DNA of 64,000 nt, from contig CAJXSL010000017.1 of NCBI GenBank assembly GCA_913060875.1, forward strand, positions 1 to 64,000, written 5' to 3'. Shown here piece after piece: positions 48,589 through 55,925 of the stretch (the stretch's first letter is position 1; every line of letters begins with the position of its first letter). The stretch comes from an uncultured Desulfobacteraceae bacterium (GTDB lineage Bacteria; Desulfobacterota; Desulfobacteria; Desulfobacterales; UBA5852). The notes under the pieces were generated by a model. It worked only from the letters and a program-made list of their open reading frames with translations, was not told where the DNA came from and made no database searches. Made by a program: the position numbers and the translations under genes.

Positions 48589-48607
48589 TAAGTAAGGAAT
48601 ACCCGTG

Positions 48608-49786
48608 ATGGCACATGTGAAAACCGGTCTGGAAGTGCTCATCCGCAACGGCCACCCGTGGACAACGGACACCCGACTGGGGCTGCTCTGCAATCCCGCT
48701 TCGGTAGATGCGAATTTTCAACATGCCCGGGACCTGTTGGTCCAACGTTTCCCCGGTCAGGTCAAAGCGCTTTACTCCCCCCAGCATGGGTTTCATGCCG
48801 AAAAACAAGACAATATGGTCGAATCCGACCACTTGGTCGATGCCGTCACCCGTCTGCCGGTCTACAGTCTTTATGGTGAAACAAGGATCCCCACCCCGCA
48901 AATGCTGGCCCCCATCGACGTCCTGCTGGTGGATCTCCAGGATGTCGGCACCCGGGTCTACACCTTTATCTACACCTTGGCCTATTGCCTGGAAGCCGCG
49001 TCGGCAGCCGGCAAACGGGTGCTGGTTCTGGATCGGCCCAATCCGGTGAACGGCCGTGATCTGGAAGGCAATATACTGGAAACCGAATGGGCCTCGTTTG
49101 TGGGGCGATTCCCCATTCCCATGCGCCACGGCATGACCATCGGGGAAATTGCGCGGTTGTTCAACGACCGTTTCGGGGCAGGTGCGTCCTTGGAGGTCAT
49201 CCCCATGGAGGGCTGGCAACGGACCATGTGGTTCGAAGATACAGGCCTGCCGTGGGTGGCGCCCTCACCCAATATGCCCACGCCGCAAACCGCCATGGTC
49301 TACCCCGGGCAGGTCATCTGGGAAGGCACCAATGTTTCCGAAGGCCGCGGCACGAGTCTTCCGTTCGAGATCTGTGGCGCGCCCTTTTTGTCTCCTTCCC
49401 AAATACTGGACTTCATCGGGGGCTCCCGGGTGCCGGGGGCGATCCTGAGACCGTGCCTGTTCGAACCCACCTCCGGAAAACACGCCGGCAGGCCATGCCA
49501 CGGCTTCCAGATTCATGTCACCACACCGGATCAATATCGTCCCTACACGACGTCACTGAAAATCCTGCAAGCCATCCTGCATCACCATGCAGATGCTTTC
49601 CAATGGAAATCAGATCCTTATGAATACGAATTTGAAAAACCGGCCATCGATCTGATTCTGGGGAGCCAAGCCGTCCGGGAGCGTATCCAGGCGATGGAAT
49701 CCATTCCGGCCCTGGAAGCGTCATGGCAATCCGACTTGGCCGCTTTTCGCTCCCTGCGCCGCCCCTATCTCCTGTATCCCGATTAA
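48608..49786 (+). CDS. DUF1343 / NamZ-like exo-beta-N-acetylmuramidase family protein
   Basis: The protein is 392-393 residues, start ATG 48608 (or GTG 48605) with AAGGA upstream. It shows the family signatures YSPQHGF (58-63), YGETRIPT, DLQDVGTRVYTFIYTL, LDRPNPVNG and PSPNMPT. NamZ (GH171) members release MurNAc from the non-reducing end of peptidoglycan. There is no signal peptide, so a cytoplasmic or unusual location is likely. The first signature usually reads PEHG, so Gln60 here replaces a conserved Glu. An element insertion lies just upstream and a terminator downstream. Confidence 0.87.
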   Translation: MAHVKTGLEVLIRNGHPWTTDTRLGLLCNPASVDANFQHARDLLVQRFPGQVKALYSPQHGFHAEKQDNMVESDHLVDAVTRLPVYSLYGETRIPTPQMLAPIDVLLVDLQDVGTRVYTFIYTLAYCLEAASAAGKRVLVLDRPNPVNGRDLEGNILETEWASFVGRFPIPMRHGMTIGEIARLFNDRFGAGASLEVIPMEGWQRTMWFEDTGLPWVAPSPNMPTPQTAMVYPGQVIWEGTNVSEGRGTSLPFEICGAPFLSPSQILDFIGGSRVPGAILRPCLFEPTSGKHAGRPCHGFQIHVTTPDQYRPYTTSLKILQAILHHHADAFQWKSDPYEYEFEKPAIDLILGSQAVRERIQAMESIPALEASWQSDLAAFRSLRRPYLLYPD

Positions 49787-49875: not shown

Positions 49876-50154
49876 TTAAGCGCTTTTCAGATTCTCAATT
49901 TCCTGCTTGAGATCGTCAATTTCCTGTTTGTACTTATCCACATCGTCTTCCGATCCCACCGGGCTTCCGATCGAATCGTCTTTTTTCCAGCTGTCCTTCA
50001 ATTCGTCGAAACCAAGGTAAATTGCCAAGCCGCCACCCAGAAGCAGCATCAAAGGAATGGCACCGGCCAGGAGCGTCAAGAACGGTGACCACCATACGAC
50101 CAGACCGATAAGACCGAGAACTGCGGCTGCCGCACCACCTACTAACGTTTTCAT
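49876..50154 (-). CDS. Small membrane protein with coiled-coil tail
   Basis: The protein is 92 residues. Two hydrophobic helices (about 8-24 and 26-48) lead into an acidic linker and the heptad KYKQEIDDLKQEIENLKSA. AAGGAGG stands 10 nt before the ATG, an excellent site, and the gene ends at a strong terminator, so a small monocistronic unit is likely. I know no function; size and charge resemble stress- or envelope-associated YtxH-like proteins, but that is only a resemblance. Confidence 0.75.
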   Translation of the reverse strand: MKTLVGGAAAAVLGLIGLVVWWSPFLTLLAGAIPLMLLLGGGLAIYLGFDELKDSWKKDDSIGSPVGSEDDVDKYKQEIDDLKQEIENLKSA

Positions 50155-50643: not shown

Positions 50644-53280
50644 ATGGGCATCACCAGGAATGAAAAATGGGCTCGCATCCAATCCCGACTGAATCGCTGG
50701 GTCCAGCGCCTTCTCAAGGGCACCTATCACTACTATGCCTGCTTTCTACCGGAAAACCCGGGCCATCTATTGTCTTGGGGGCTCAAACTTTTTTACCGGG
50801 GCATCACCCTGGCCCCCAGCCAGGCGAACGTACTCAAGCAATTGCCCCGCAACGCTATTCCGGTCTATGTCACCAAGCGCAAAAGCGTTTTCGAACGTCT
50901 GTTTTACCATACCCGCTATCGGGATACCCGTCATCCGGTCCCGACCCTGGCCTTTGACTATGCCCTGTTCCTGTGCCAGCCCCTATCGAGAATTTGCAGA
51001 ATGCTGCTGGCCCGCCTGGATTATTTTTGCCGCCATTTCAATTTTCCGAATGCATATGCCAGTGGGTACTATGCCGAGGCACTGCGCAGCGGGCAGGCAG
51101 CCATCCTTTCTCTTGTGGAGCCACGCGGGTTTCACCGCCGTTTTGTGAAAGAGAAAGAAGATCCCATCCGGTACCTGCTGGAAGTTCAGAAAACAACGGA
51201 TCGTCCCATCTTTCTGATTCCCCAGTTGATGATCTATAAAAAGGATCCGGAAAAGGCCAATCCCTCGTTGTGGGATCTGCTCACCGGACCTGAACGCCCC
51301 CTGGGAGGCTGGCGGCGGGTGATGATGCTGATCAAAAAGCCGGGGCGGACTTTCGTCGAAATCAGTGCGCCGCTGAATCTCAAAACGTTCCTGGCGCATC
51401 CGGACATTCAACATCGCGACAGCACCTATCAGGCGCTGGCCCTGCGGCGTAATCTGCTGCTCCAACTCCATCGTCACCGGCAAAGCATCATGGGGCCGAT
51501 TTTGAAAACCCGGCTGGAAATCAAGGAAAACGTTCTTACGGGTGCCGCTCTCCAGGAATTCATCCGGCAACAGGCGGCGGCCGAGGACAAACCGGTCACA
51601 CGCCTGCTGAAAAAGGCCGATCATTACTTTGAGGAAATCGCGGCGAACTATCGGCCCTGGACCATCAAAATTTATGAAGCCCTGCTCACCTGGATTATCA
51701 ATACCATGTTCGATGGCTTCATTGTGGACCAGAAAGGACTGGATCGCCTGAAGGCAATGTCCCAGAAGGGCCCGCTGATTTTGCTGCCCTGCCATAAAAG
51801 CCACATCGACTACCTCATGCTCTCCTATGTCATGTACCGCAACAACATGCCTTGCCCCCATATTGTCGCGGGGAAAAACCTTTCGTTCTGGCCCATGGGG
51901 CCTATTTTCAGAAGCGCCGGGGCTTTTTTCATGCGCCGGACCTTCAAGGGCGCGCCCCTGTATGCTCGTGTTTTCGCAGCCTATATCTACAAACTTCTCC
52001 AGGAAGGGTTTAACATCGAGGTCTTCATCGAGGGCGGCCGCAGCCGCACCGGCAAATTGCTCTCTCCCAAGACCGGCCTGTTGTCCATCCTGTTGGACGC
52101 CCATCGCAAAGGGGCCTGCGACGACCTCATTCTGGCCCCGATTTTTATCGGATATGACAAAGTCCCGGAGGAAAAGGCCTACCTGCATGAACTTGAGGGC
52201 GGCAAAAAAGAACCGGAAAGCCTGTCCCAGGTGATCAGGGCGCGCAAGGTGCTGAAAAAACGTTTTGGCAAAATCTACATCGAATTCCACGATCCCCTGT
52301 CTTTGCAATCGCTTCTGGCACGCAACGACCTTTCCCTGGACACCATGGACAAAGAGGCCACCAGCGCCTTTTGCCGCAACATCGGTCACCGTGTCATTCA
52401 TGCCATCAACAACATCGCCATCATCACGCCCCACGCGCTGGTGGCGGCCTCGGTGCTGAATCAGCCGGCCGCCACCTATACCTATGAGGCTGTCGCCGCC
52501 ATTGCGAACACCTATTTAAGGCAGCTCAATTTCCAGGGCTACAAGCTGGCCGATACGCTGATCATGGCGCCCGATCACGCCCTGGAACAGGCGTTTGAAT
52601 CCTACGTTCAGCGAAAATTCATCGAACCGGTATCCAAAGGAGATACCACCGAGCATGATGAGACCCGCTATCGCACCAATGCCGACAAACGCCCCAGCCT
52701 GGAGTATTACAAAAACAACTGTGTGGCCTGCTTTGTTCCGGTGGCCCTCACGGCCCTGGCCATCCTCGAACGCGACGCTTTCCAGTTCATTTCAACCGAT
52801 CTGCATGGGAGCTATCGTTTCCTCCAGGACTTCTTCAAGTACGAATTCGCCTATGATATCGAGAAACCGGCCGAATTTTACATCCGTAAAAGTATCAAGG
52901 CCTATATTGACGATGCGGTTTTAATGCCCCACCCGACGCTCCCCGACACCTACAACATCACATCGGCAGGACTCCGCAAGCTAAGGCTTTACGCGGGATT
53001 CCTGAAAGCCTATTTTGAAGCTTACCGGGTGGTTCTGGCCCAGTTAGGCATGCAAAAAAGCAGTGATGTCGGCTACAAGGAGCAGGCCAAGAAAATTGCC
53101 GCCACAGGGTCCCGCATGCTCAAGCAGGGCGAGATCACGTGCCCCGAAGCACTGTCCCGGGTCACCTTCAGCAATGCGGTAAAATTCTTTAACAGCCGGG
53201 ATATCGCCTGCAACGAAGACGATCAAGAGGCCCGTCCCTATGCCGAGGCCATCCGACGCTATCTGGGCCTGTTGCAGTGA
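50644..53280 (+). CDS. plsB: Glycerol-3-phosphate acyltransferase PlsB
   Basis: The protein is 878 residues, a full-length PlsB. It acylates sn-glycerol-3-phosphate at position 1 at the inner membrane. The acyltransferase core has HKSHID (H-x4-D, near residue 384), FFMRRTF, VFIEGGRSRTGK (about 462) and LAPIFIGYDKVPEE. The start ATG 50644 lacks a strong ribosome site (AGGATGACTT is 3-11 nt before). It is 10 bp from the fused sugar-nucleotide gene, so they are cotranscribed. Confidence 0.94.
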   Translation: MGITRNEKWARIQSRLNRWVQRLLKGTYHYYACFLPENPGHLLSWGLKLFYRGITLAPSQANVLKQLPRNAIPVYVTKRKSVFERLFYHTRYRDTRHPVPTLAFDYALFLCQPLSRICRMLLARLDYFCRHFNFPNAYASGYYAEALRSGQAAILSLVEPRGFHRRFVKEKEDPIRYLLEVQKTTDRPIFLIPQLMIYKKDPEKANPSLWDLLTGPERPLGGWRRVMMLIKKPGRTFVEISAPLNLKTFLAHPDIQHRDSTYQALALRRNLLLQLHRHRQSIMGPILKTRLEIKENVLTGAALQEFIRQQAAAEDKPVTRLLKKADHYFEEIAANYRPWTIKIYEALLTWIINTMFDGFIVDQKGLDRLKAMSQKGPLILLPCHKSHIDYLMLSYVMYRNNMPCPHIVAGKNLSFWPMGPIFRSAGAFFMRRTFKGAPLYARVFAAYIYKLLQEGFNIEVFIEGGRSRTGKLLSPKTGLLSILLDAHRKGACDDLILAPIFIGYDKVPEEKAYLHELEGGKKEPESLSQVIRARKVLKKRFGKIYIEFHDPLSLQSLLARNDLSLDTMDKEATSAFCRNIGHRVIHAINNIAIITPHALVAASVLNQPAATYTYEAVAAIANTYLRQLNFQGYKLADTLIMAPDHALEQAFESYVQRKFIEPVSKGDTTEHDETRYRTNADKRPSLEYYKNNCVACFVPVALTALAILERDAFQFISTDLHGSYRFLQDFFKYEFAYDIEKPAEFYIRKSIKAYIDDAVLMPHPTLPDTYNITSAGLRKLRLYAGFLKAYFEAYRVVLAQLGMQKSSDVGYKEQAKKIAATGSRMLKQGEITCPEALSRVTFSNAVKFFNSRDIACNEDDQEARPYAEAIRRYLGLLQ

Positions 53281-53290
53281 GGACCGCCCC

Positions 53291-55009
53291 ATGATTGCCC
53301 TTGTCTTGGCGGCGGGTTTCGGAACCCGTCTGCGGCCCTACACCGATCATACCCCCAAGCCACTGTTCACCCTGAACGGCCGGCCGCTGCTGGATATCAT
53401 GATCCGCCGCCTAACGGCCGCCGGCGCCGACACCGTGATCGTCAACACCCATCATCACCATCGACAAATCGAAGACTTTCTGCACGGACAGTGCTATGCC
53501 GCGAATATCATCACACGCCACGAACCCGTCATCCTCGGTACGGGAGGAGCCATCCGCAACACAGCCGACATCTGGCGTTCACACCCCCTCCTGGTGGTCA
53601 ACAGCGATATCGAAACGGACATCGACTTTCAGGCCCTCTATCGGTTTCATCTGGATCAGGACCGTCCGGCAACGCTGGCCCTGTGCCGTCATCCGGCGTT
53701 CGATTCGGTGGCTGTCGATCATCAGGGCCATGTGATCGGTTTCCAGGAAGCAACGGATACCGACGGCCGCCGACCCTCTGACCTGATGACGTTCACCGGC
53801 ATCCAGGTGCTGACCGACACGATTCTCCCCTATATTCCTTCGGAAGGATTCGCCAGCAGCATCGATGCCTACAGGGCCATGCTGGCCGACGGCCACCGCC
53901 TTTCGGCCTATATCCCCGATCCGTTGCGCTGGTCGGACCTGGGCACACCGGAACGCTACCAGACCGCAGCCCGCGACATCATGACGGCGCACGTGTTGGG
54001 ACGAATCGATCCAAGCCATCGATCAGCGCCTGCCGAATGGCAGCCGCTGCCAGGAGACGGCTCCGATCGCCGCTGGTACCGTCTGCGCGGGGGGCCAACC
54101 CGCATGGTGGTGGCCGACCACGGCATCAAGCCTTCGGCCGACACATGCGAAGCGGAGGCCTTTGTCGCCATTGGAAGCCATCTCCACCGCCAGGGCCTGC
54201 CCGTCCCCCGGATATACCTGGAAGACACCTTTGCCGGACTCGTGTTCATGGAAGATCTCGGGTCTGAAAATCTTCAGACACGTGTGCAGGCATCATCCCA
54301 TTTATCCACCATCGAAACGGATTATCGTCGCCTCATCGATATCCTGCTGGATATGGCGATAGCAGGCGGCCAGGGGTTTAATCCCGACTGGGCCTACCAA
54401 ACCCGGCGCTATGACCGAAATGTGATTCTCGAAAAGGAATGCCGCTATTTTGTGGAAGCCTTCCTCAAGGGCTATCTGGGCATAACGGCCGCATATGACA
54501 CGGTGGCGCCCGAGTGCCGGCACTTGGCGGATGTCATCATGGCCATTGAGCCGGTGGGGTTCATGCACCGCGACTTTCAGTCCCGCAACATCATGGTGCG
54601 GGCAGACCGGTTCTACCTGATCGATTTTCAGGGTGGCCGGATCGGTCCGCCCCATTATGACCTGGCCTCGCTGCTCATTGACCCCTACGTCGATTTACCG
54701 CAGGCGTTGCAAAATACCCTTCTGGTCTACTTTGCCGACCAACTCCAAAAACGCACCGGCCTATCCGCCGGGCTGACGCAACGCGTTTACCGGTATTGCG
54801 CCCTCGCCCGCAACCTGCAAATCTTAGGCGCCTACGGCTTTTTAACCCGCACCAAAGGCAAACATCAATTTTCCCGCTACATACCGGCGGCCGTGGAAAG
54901 TCTGCAACATGGGCTGGCGATGTTCGACCGGGGTGAATTCCCCCGTCTGACAACCATCGCGAACCAAACCATTCCGGAAAACCTGACGCTGAGAACATCC
55001 CGTCACTGA
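53291..55009 (+). CDS. Fused nucleotidyltransferase-sugar kinase, MurU-AmgK-like
   Basis: The protein is 572 residues, ATG with TGAGGA 7 nt before. Residues 1-235 form an NTP-transferase domain: LAAGFGTRLRPYTDHTPKPL, VNSDIETD, MTFTGIQVL and RWSDLGTPERY, all in the order found in MurU (MurNAc-1-P uridylyltransferase). Residues about 245-570 form an APH-type kinase: FMEDLGSENL, Brenner motif MHRDFQSRNIMV, and IDFQGGRIGPPHYDLASLL, as in AmgK (MurNAc/GlcNAc anomeric kinase). In pseudomonads these are separate adjacent genes. The fused pair would convert MurNAc to UDP-MurNAc. Other sugar substrates are possible. Confidence 0.85.
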   Translation: MIALVLAAGFGTRLRPYTDHTPKPLFTLNGRPLLDIMIRRLTAAGADTVIVNTHHHHRQIEDFLHGQCYAANIITRHEPVILGTGGAIRNTADIWRSHPLLVVNSDIETDIDFQALYRFHLDQDRPATLALCRHPAFDSVAVDHQGHVIGFQEATDTDGRRPSDLMTFTGIQVLTDTILPYIPSEGFASSIDAYRAMLADGHRLSAYIPDPLRWSDLGTPERYQTAARDIMTAHVLGRIDPSHRSAPAEWQPLPGDGSDRRWYRLRGGPTRMVVADHGIKPSADTCEAEAFVAIGSHLHRQGLPVPRIYLEDTFAGLVFMEDLGSENLQTRVQASSHLSTIETDYRRLIDILLDMAIAGGQGFNPDWAYQTRRYDRNVILEKECRYFVEAFLKGYLGITAAYDTVAPECRHLADVIMAIEPVGFMHRDFQSRNIMVRADRFYLIDFQGGRIGPPHYDLASLLIDPYVDLPQALQNTLLVYFADQLQKRTGLSAGLTQRVYRYCALARNLQILGAYGFLTRTKGKHQFSRYIPAAVESLQHGLAMFDRGEFPRLTTIANQTIPENLTLRTSRH

Positions 55010-55094: not shown

Positions 55095-55925
55095 ATGAAT
55101 CCCATCAAAGTCATGGTCAACGGCCTTCCCGGCAATGTGACGCAAATGATTGCCACCCACATCCTTCGCGACGATGCCCTGGCATTGTTGCCCTATTCCC
55201 TTACCGGCCCTGACATTGCGTCTGACCAGGTTGTCGTCGAAAATGAAACCATCGAACTGATCCGGCCCGATCGTCGGGACGCCTCCATCATGGCCATCAA
55301 GGACACTTACGGCCCGTTCATCAGCATCGACTTTACCCATCCTGCGGCCGTCAATTCCAACGCCCGGTTTTATTGCACCCATGGCTTGCCGTTTGTCATG
55401 GGGACCACCGGCGGCGATCGCCAGGAACTTCACGATACCATCACCAAATCTTCTGTTTCGGCTGTGGTCGCGCCCAACATGGCCCGACAGATTGTCGGGC
55501 TGCAGGCCATGCTGGCCCATGGGGCCGAGAATTTTCCGGAACTTTTTCAGGGGTACACGCTGGAGGTTCGCGAAAGTCATCAGCAGGGCAAGGCCGATAC
55601 CAGCGGAACGGCCAAAACCGTGGTCGGCTATTTCAACGCGATGGGGGTTGATTTTTCAGATGACCGGATTCAAAAAGAACGCGATCCTGAAGTTCAGAAA
55701 CAGCAGTGGGGCATCCCGGAAGCCTATCTGGGCGGCCATGGCTGGCATACCTACACATTGACGTCACCGGACGGCACCGCCGTGTTCGAATTGAAACACA
55801 ATATCAATGGCCGGGAAATCTATGTCGAGGGAACGGTGAGGGCCATTCGTTATCTGGAAAAGCAGATACGCGAGGGCGTTCAGGGCCGCATATTTACCAT
55901 GATCGACGTGTTGAAAGCCACCTGA
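55095..55925 (+). CDS. dapB: Dihydrodipicolinate reductase, plant-type DapB
   Basis: The protein is 276 residues, ATG with AGGAGG 5 nt before. It reduces dihydrodipicolinate to tetrahydrodipicolinate in lysine and diaminopimelate synthesis. IKVMVNGLPGNVTQMIATHIL is the nucleotide-binding opening; SIDFTHPAAVNSNARFYC, VMGTTGGDR, VAPNMARQI and ESHQQGKADTSGTAKT follow. The DFTHPAAVNSN and GTTGGDR segments and the length correspond to the plant/chloroplast form rather than the E. coli form. It is 85 bp after the fused sugar gene, on the same strand. Confidence 0.9.
   Translation: MNPIKVMVNGLPGNVTQMIATHILRDDALALLPYSLTGPDIASDQVVVENETIELIRPDRRDASIMAIKDTYGPFISIDFTHPAAVNSNARFYCTHGLPFVMGTTGGDRQELHDTITKSSVSAVVAPNMARQIVGLQAMLAHGAENFPELFQGYTLEVRESHQQGKADTSGTAKTVVGYFNAMGVDFSDDRIQKERDPEVQKQQWGIPEAYLGGHGWHTYTLTSPDGTAVFELKHNINGREIYVEGTVRAIRYLEKQIREGVQGRIFTMIDVLKAT

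Follow-up and report, generated by a model that had tools for sequence, protein, structure and literature searches.

In the window, by which we mean the whole analysed stretch of 64,000 nucleotides from a bacterium of the sulfate-reducer type, the forward strand carries at 53291-55009 a MurU-AmgK fusion gene that runs from an ATG to a stop codon, has no internal stop and encodes 572 residues. The N-terminal half (residues 1-230; 53291..53980, forward strand) resembles MurU-type sugar-1-phosphate uridylyltransferases, while the C-terminal half (residues 248-545; 54032..54925, forward strand) resembles the anomeric sugar kinase AmgK, both assignments being drawn from NCBIfam models, PDB matches, trees and individual residues. 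Pfam searches gave the same division, with NTP_transferase spanning residues 3-230 (80 bits) and APH spanning residues 250-484 (81 bits), both far above the cut-off. Residues 231-247 (53981..54031, forward strand) form a variable linker, recognizable by its low identity to congeners and by a dip in model confidence. Across these 17 residues the identity to congeners amounts to 18-24%, as compared to 55-71% in the domains, and in the AlphaFold model of the fusion (mean pLDDT 92, pTM 0.89) the pLDDT falls to 77-80 around residues 241-260. In both halves, dN/dS against congeners is about 0.15-0.24, with dS near saturation. An alternative longer ATG frame begins at 53240; an AGGA box lies some 8 bases ahead of the start at 53291, and relatives begin at the equivalent M(K/I)AL. 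The single 572-residue chain proposed in the initial annotation is thus real, as the reading frame is intact and about 50 genomes of the order Desulfobacterales share the fusion. The same 50 or so separate genomes rule out an assembly or frameshift artefact as its origin, and a reverse-strand reading of the frame is ruled out by its many stops.

The fusion gene is embedded in a conserved set of neighbours. A PlsB-type glycerol-3-phosphate acyltransferase gene (50644..53280, forward strand; PF19277, PF01553) precedes it in 20 of 20 loci, and its stop codon lies 10 bases before the fusion start, a spacing from which co-transcription of the two genes appears probable. The conserved downstream neighbour (55095..55925, forward strand; PF05173/PF01113) encodes the dihydrodipicolinate reductase DapB. 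Further upstream, at a distance of 3.5 kb from the fusion, lies the sole copy in the genome of a gene for a NamZ exo-beta-N-acetylmuramidase (48605..49786, forward strand; likely start ATG 48608), with PF07075 (280 bits) and PF20732 (170 bits) both over the cut-off. By inspection, neither this protein nor the N-termini of its relatives exhibit a signal peptide, and NamZ is therefore probably cytoplasmic. Between NamZ and PlsB, the reverse strand contains a 91-residue open reading frame (49876-50154) without Pfam match, having a hydrophobic first half and a charged, coiled-coil-like tail, and being 53-98% identical in most of the 20 Desulfobacterales loci. In all 20 of these loci, which were picked from genomes carrying NamZ and the fusion on one contig, the block NamZ-PlsB-fusion is kept in order and strand.

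Distribution of the fused chain and its linkage to NamZ

The fusion is peculiar neither to this genome nor to its lineage but is the standard form across Desulfobacterales, where about 50 of the 58 genomes analysed contain it, in one copy each and at full length or nearly so. A scan of GTDB species genomes returned 483 relatives, and the best 80 of the 483 were full-length matches, the record names of which mostly read Desulfobacterales, Desulfobacteraceae or Deltaproteobacteria. In the other orders of the phylum (148 phylum genomes), the two proteins are mostly encoded by separate genes, often adjoining in the order murU to amgK. Fused chains outside the order were found in genomes G070 (L160 6119-9326) and G118 (L169 6069-7796), both with longer spacers, and, in divergent form, in G193 (L167 6083-7687); these three possibly represent independent events. 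Apparent fused frames of about 650 residues in G071, G108, G137 and G154 turned out to be two open reading frames with an intervening stop.

Parsimony required three changes between the fused and split states on the tree of N-terminal halves and two on the tree of C-terminal halves, suggesting independent fusion events, with a single fused clade not being rejected on either tree (p-AU 0.158 and 0.070). Because the separate genes of the phylum already lie in the order murU to amgK, the fusion arose most simply by the joining of neighbouring genes. The "reverse order" pointed out in the initial annotation is correct insofar as MurU precedes AmgK in the chain, but given this pre-existing gene order it poses no puzzle.

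The neighbouring NamZ gene, which the initial annotation did not mention, is the best evidence for the pathway and a probable source of MurNAc. Both NamZ and the fusion are present in 52 Desulfobacterales genomes; in 33 of them they share a contig and then always lie within 15 kb of each other, and in the other 19, mostly fragmented assemblies, they reside on different contigs. Within the order this linkage partly reflects inheritance, since the wider region is syntenic as well. Outside the order, NamZ directly adjoins the MurU/AmgK genes in two further families: the NamZ and MurU genes touch in G059, and in G070 the fusion begins about 10 bases after NamZ. When the 148 phylum genomes were classified, 72 had both kinase and NamZ, 13 only the kinase, 14 only NamZ and 49 neither (Fisher p 1e-14, uncorrected for ancestry), and 54 of the 56 genomes with the strongest kinase matches carried NamZ.

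As for other genes related to the pathway, this genome contains AmpG, MurA and one GH3 enzyme of the NagZ type. MurQ, the etherase of E. coli-type MurNAc recycling, the absence of which had been proposed as a check, indeed did not exceed the cut-off in any of the 58 Desulfobacterales genomes. Likewise, none of the 58 yielded AnmK, a component of the Pseudomonas-type pathway, over the cut-off, control genomes being positive; over the phylum sample, AnmK was found in 13 of 148 genomes.

Affinities of the two halves and their likely substrate

For the N-terminal half, the top NCBIfam models were the mannose-1-phosphate guanylyltransferase (GMPP) exception model, with 113 bits, and MurU, with 112 bits. 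As the latter score misses the equivalog cut-off of NF045761 (250 bits), we term this half MurU-like rather than an NCBI equivalog; the same cut-off is also missed by the MurU proteins of Parabacteroides (146) and Legionella (238). A PDB sequence search placed two MurU structures on top (PpMurU 4y7t, E 8e-22), followed by GMPPB and HddC, and the N-terminal part of the AlphaFold model superimposed on MurU 4y7u with Z 25.7 and 2.0 Å over 220 residues. In a tree of 60 rows, LicC not being among them, the N-terminal half fell into a supported clade (99/95) of 40 rows that comprises PpMurU and PaMurU (4y7t, 8hhd), the Bacteroidales MurU and other Desulfobacterota MurU-like proteins, with GMPPB, HddC and paralogues from the phylum itself lying outside. 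The heptose-type clustering that the initial annotation had named as a possible refutation was thus not seen, and LicC (1jyk) matched the N-terminal half only weakly and partially (E 4e-8, residues 3-64). In some Desulfobacterales genomes we observed a second group of MurU-like nucleotidyltransferases (L190, L191, L193, L195, L202), which has N52 but Y104, N168 and L214 and adjoins the MurU clade in the tree.

The C-terminal half scored 71 bits with the NCBIfam AmgK model, well short of the NF045759 equivalog cut-off of 550 bits, and is for this reason called AmgK-like; the Parabacteroides and Legionella pairs miss the NCBI equivalog cut-offs, too. Its only convincing PDB match by sequence was 3csv (E 3.5e-22), the second match reaching just E 0.43. 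The C-terminal part of the AlphaFold model aligned with this AmgK-family structure at Z 25.1 and 2.4 Å over 303 residues, and in the C-half tree the kinase grouped with AmgK. Taken together, the NCBIfam, PDB and tree data bear out the MurU-like and AmgK-like identities that the initial annotation had assigned to the two halves, the trees of the two halves supplying the phylogeny it had put forward as a check. AmgK-like domains also occur in other fused arrangements. In Bacteroidales, the kinase (L179 6001-7431; L187 6001-7431) is fused to a domain of the RapZ C-terminal type, RapZ being a regulator of the hexosamine pathway, and an annotation reading just "RNase adapter RapZ" may hide an AmgK. 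In Rhizobium (L188 1323-2837), an AmgK-like domain and TsaE share one open reading frame that is annotated as tsaE only.

The initial annotation had the enzyme pair convert free MurNAc (or GlcNAc) to UDP-MurNAc, which is loose chemistry, as GlcNAc would yield at most GlcNAc-1-P or UDP-GlcNAc. That the fusion salvages mainly GlcNAc, via GlcNAc-1-phosphate to UDP-GlcNAc, with MurNAc as a minor substrate, would fit the NCBIfam name of AmgK, a MurNAc/GlcNAc kinase, and the NagZ-type GH3 enzyme of the genome, which would free GlcNAc. However, the hydrolase that is linked to the fusion and co-occurs with it is NamZ, a MurNAc releaser, and the N-terminal half belongs to the MurU clade, with GlmU models scoring far lower than MurU models. 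We therefore regard a predominant GlcNAc function as unlikely.

Alternatively, the likeness to MurU and AmgK might hold at the family level only, the fusion activating another sugar, such as heptose, mannose or a sugar of an envelope polysaccharide, with GTP, CTP or UTP. The tie between the mannose-1-phosphate guanylyltransferase and MurU models is in line with such a role, as are the nearly equal fold similarities of the N-terminal half to GMPPB (Z 25.4) and P. putida MurU (Z 25.7) and the presence of Glu78, a guanine contact in HddC, although PpMurU also carries Glu78. What sets the N-terminal half apart from GMPPB and HddC is its position in the tree together with the pair Asn52/Phe168. Asn52 holds UTP in P. 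putida MurU (PMC6981941), and every one of the 40 rows of the MurU clade, the fusion included, has N at position 52, whereas GMPPB and HddC have A or S; at position 168, the MurU clade has F or Y (F168 in the fusion) in place of the N of GMPPB and HddC. Moreover, the kinase half is without a significant PDB relative other than AmgK, and the NamZ link indicates MurNAc. A different sugar substrate thus seems quite improbable.

Besides Asn52, the N-terminal half keeps GxGxR, Lys23, Asp106 and Asp216, and the kinase half keeps H426-R-D428-x4-N433 (HRDxxxxN) and D445-F-Q. These catalytic motif residues show no variation across alignments of 29 and 40 fusions, which, together with a dN/dS of about 0.2, makes it very hard to believe that the fusion acts as a regulator sensing MurNAc, its catalysis being weak or lost.

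A putative MurNAc salvage route and its relation to known systems

According to these data, we consider it likely that the fusion protein serves MurNAc salvage as a bifunctional enzyme, converting MurNAc to MurNAc-1-P and further to UDP-MurNAc. In the proposed route, cell wall fragments would enter the cytoplasm through AmpG and be trimmed by leaderless NamZ and by NagZ, whereby NamZ would free MurNAc in the cytoplasm. With ATP as donor, the AmgK-like C-terminal half would then phosphorylate MurNAc at its anomeric hydroxyl group, yielding MurNAc-alpha-1-phosphate, and the MurU-like N-terminal half would transfer UMP from UTP onto MurNAc-1-P, yielding UDP-MurNAc and bypassing MurA/MurB. Homology underlies the predicted kinase and uridylyl transfer steps, and gene content and linkage underlie the suggested import and NamZ steps; the substrates of the fusion and the NamZ step in vivo are what we infer from them. 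Channelling between the two active sites, which the initial annotation took such a fusion to show, is no more than a possibility suggested by the fusion itself; the linker is short and variable. Given the absence of AnmK, the proposed route leaves anhydroMurNAc from lytic transglycosylases unaccounted for. More tentatively, most Desulfobacterota might follow a third MurNAc salvage route, working without AnmK/MupP or MurQ. Fragments would come in via AmpG, NamZ in the cytoplasm would cleave MurNAc off their non-reducing ends, and MurU and AmgK would turn it directly into UDP-MurNAc. The latter two would have become joined in the ancestor of Desulfobacterales and perhaps on one or two further occasions within the phylum, and the fusion would hand MurNAc-1-P from one of its sites to the other.

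Most of what is known about wall recycling comes from Pseudomonas, E. coli, Bacillus and Tannerella. Compared to Pseudomonas, where AmgK and MurU act together with AnmK and MupP, the same two reactions are to be expected from the homologous kinase and uridylyltransferase with their conserved catalytic residues. However, Pseudomonas uses two proteins instead of one chain, and here AnmK is missing and NamZ is linked instead. The gammaproteobacterial pairs that we examined have the kinase first, in contrast to the MurU-AmgK order of the fusion. Bacillus NamZ is secreted and its operon is catabolic. The Desulfobacterales NamZ resembles known NamZ proteins in having both domains (PF07075/PF20732) complete, but differs from the Bacillus protein in showing no signal peptide on inspection and in its linkage to MurU/AmgK. 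Tannerella possesses an AmgK/MurU route with free MurNAc (PMC7670621), and its NamZ1 and NamZ2 are cited in PMC10465942. A MurNAc-to-UDP-MurNAc route and NamZ enzymes coexisting in one organism are what this Tannerella/Bacteroidales system would have in common with Desulfobacterales. In the kinase tree, Bacteroidales homologues sit among those of Desulfobacterota, and in the N-half tree they belong to the clade that also holds the Desulfobacterota proteins, but the Bacteroidales loci examined have separate genes with the kinase first, the kinase carrying the RapZ-like C-terminal domain, and no NamZ was seen alongside.

The open-access literature that we found contained no mention of a MurU-AmgK fusion or of AmgK in Desulfobacterota, nor a description of an enzyme activity for any Desulfobacterota member; as the search covered open-access papers only, this silence is weak evidence of novelty. 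The chemistry is already known from Pseudomonas AmgK/MurU and from the anabolic route of Tannerella. New is the single chain that is conserved over an order and tied to a leaderless NamZ, without AnmK and MurQ. From the fusion one would expect a degree of intrinsic tolerance to fosfomycin wherever MurNAc can be had. It could also serve as a one-protein means of producing or labelling UDP-MurNAc, and it provides a natural test case for whether channelling results when kinase and uridylyltransferase are joined. In an entire order of anaerobes, the two-step shortcut to UDP-MurNAc would reside in a single polypeptide with genetic ties to NamZ.
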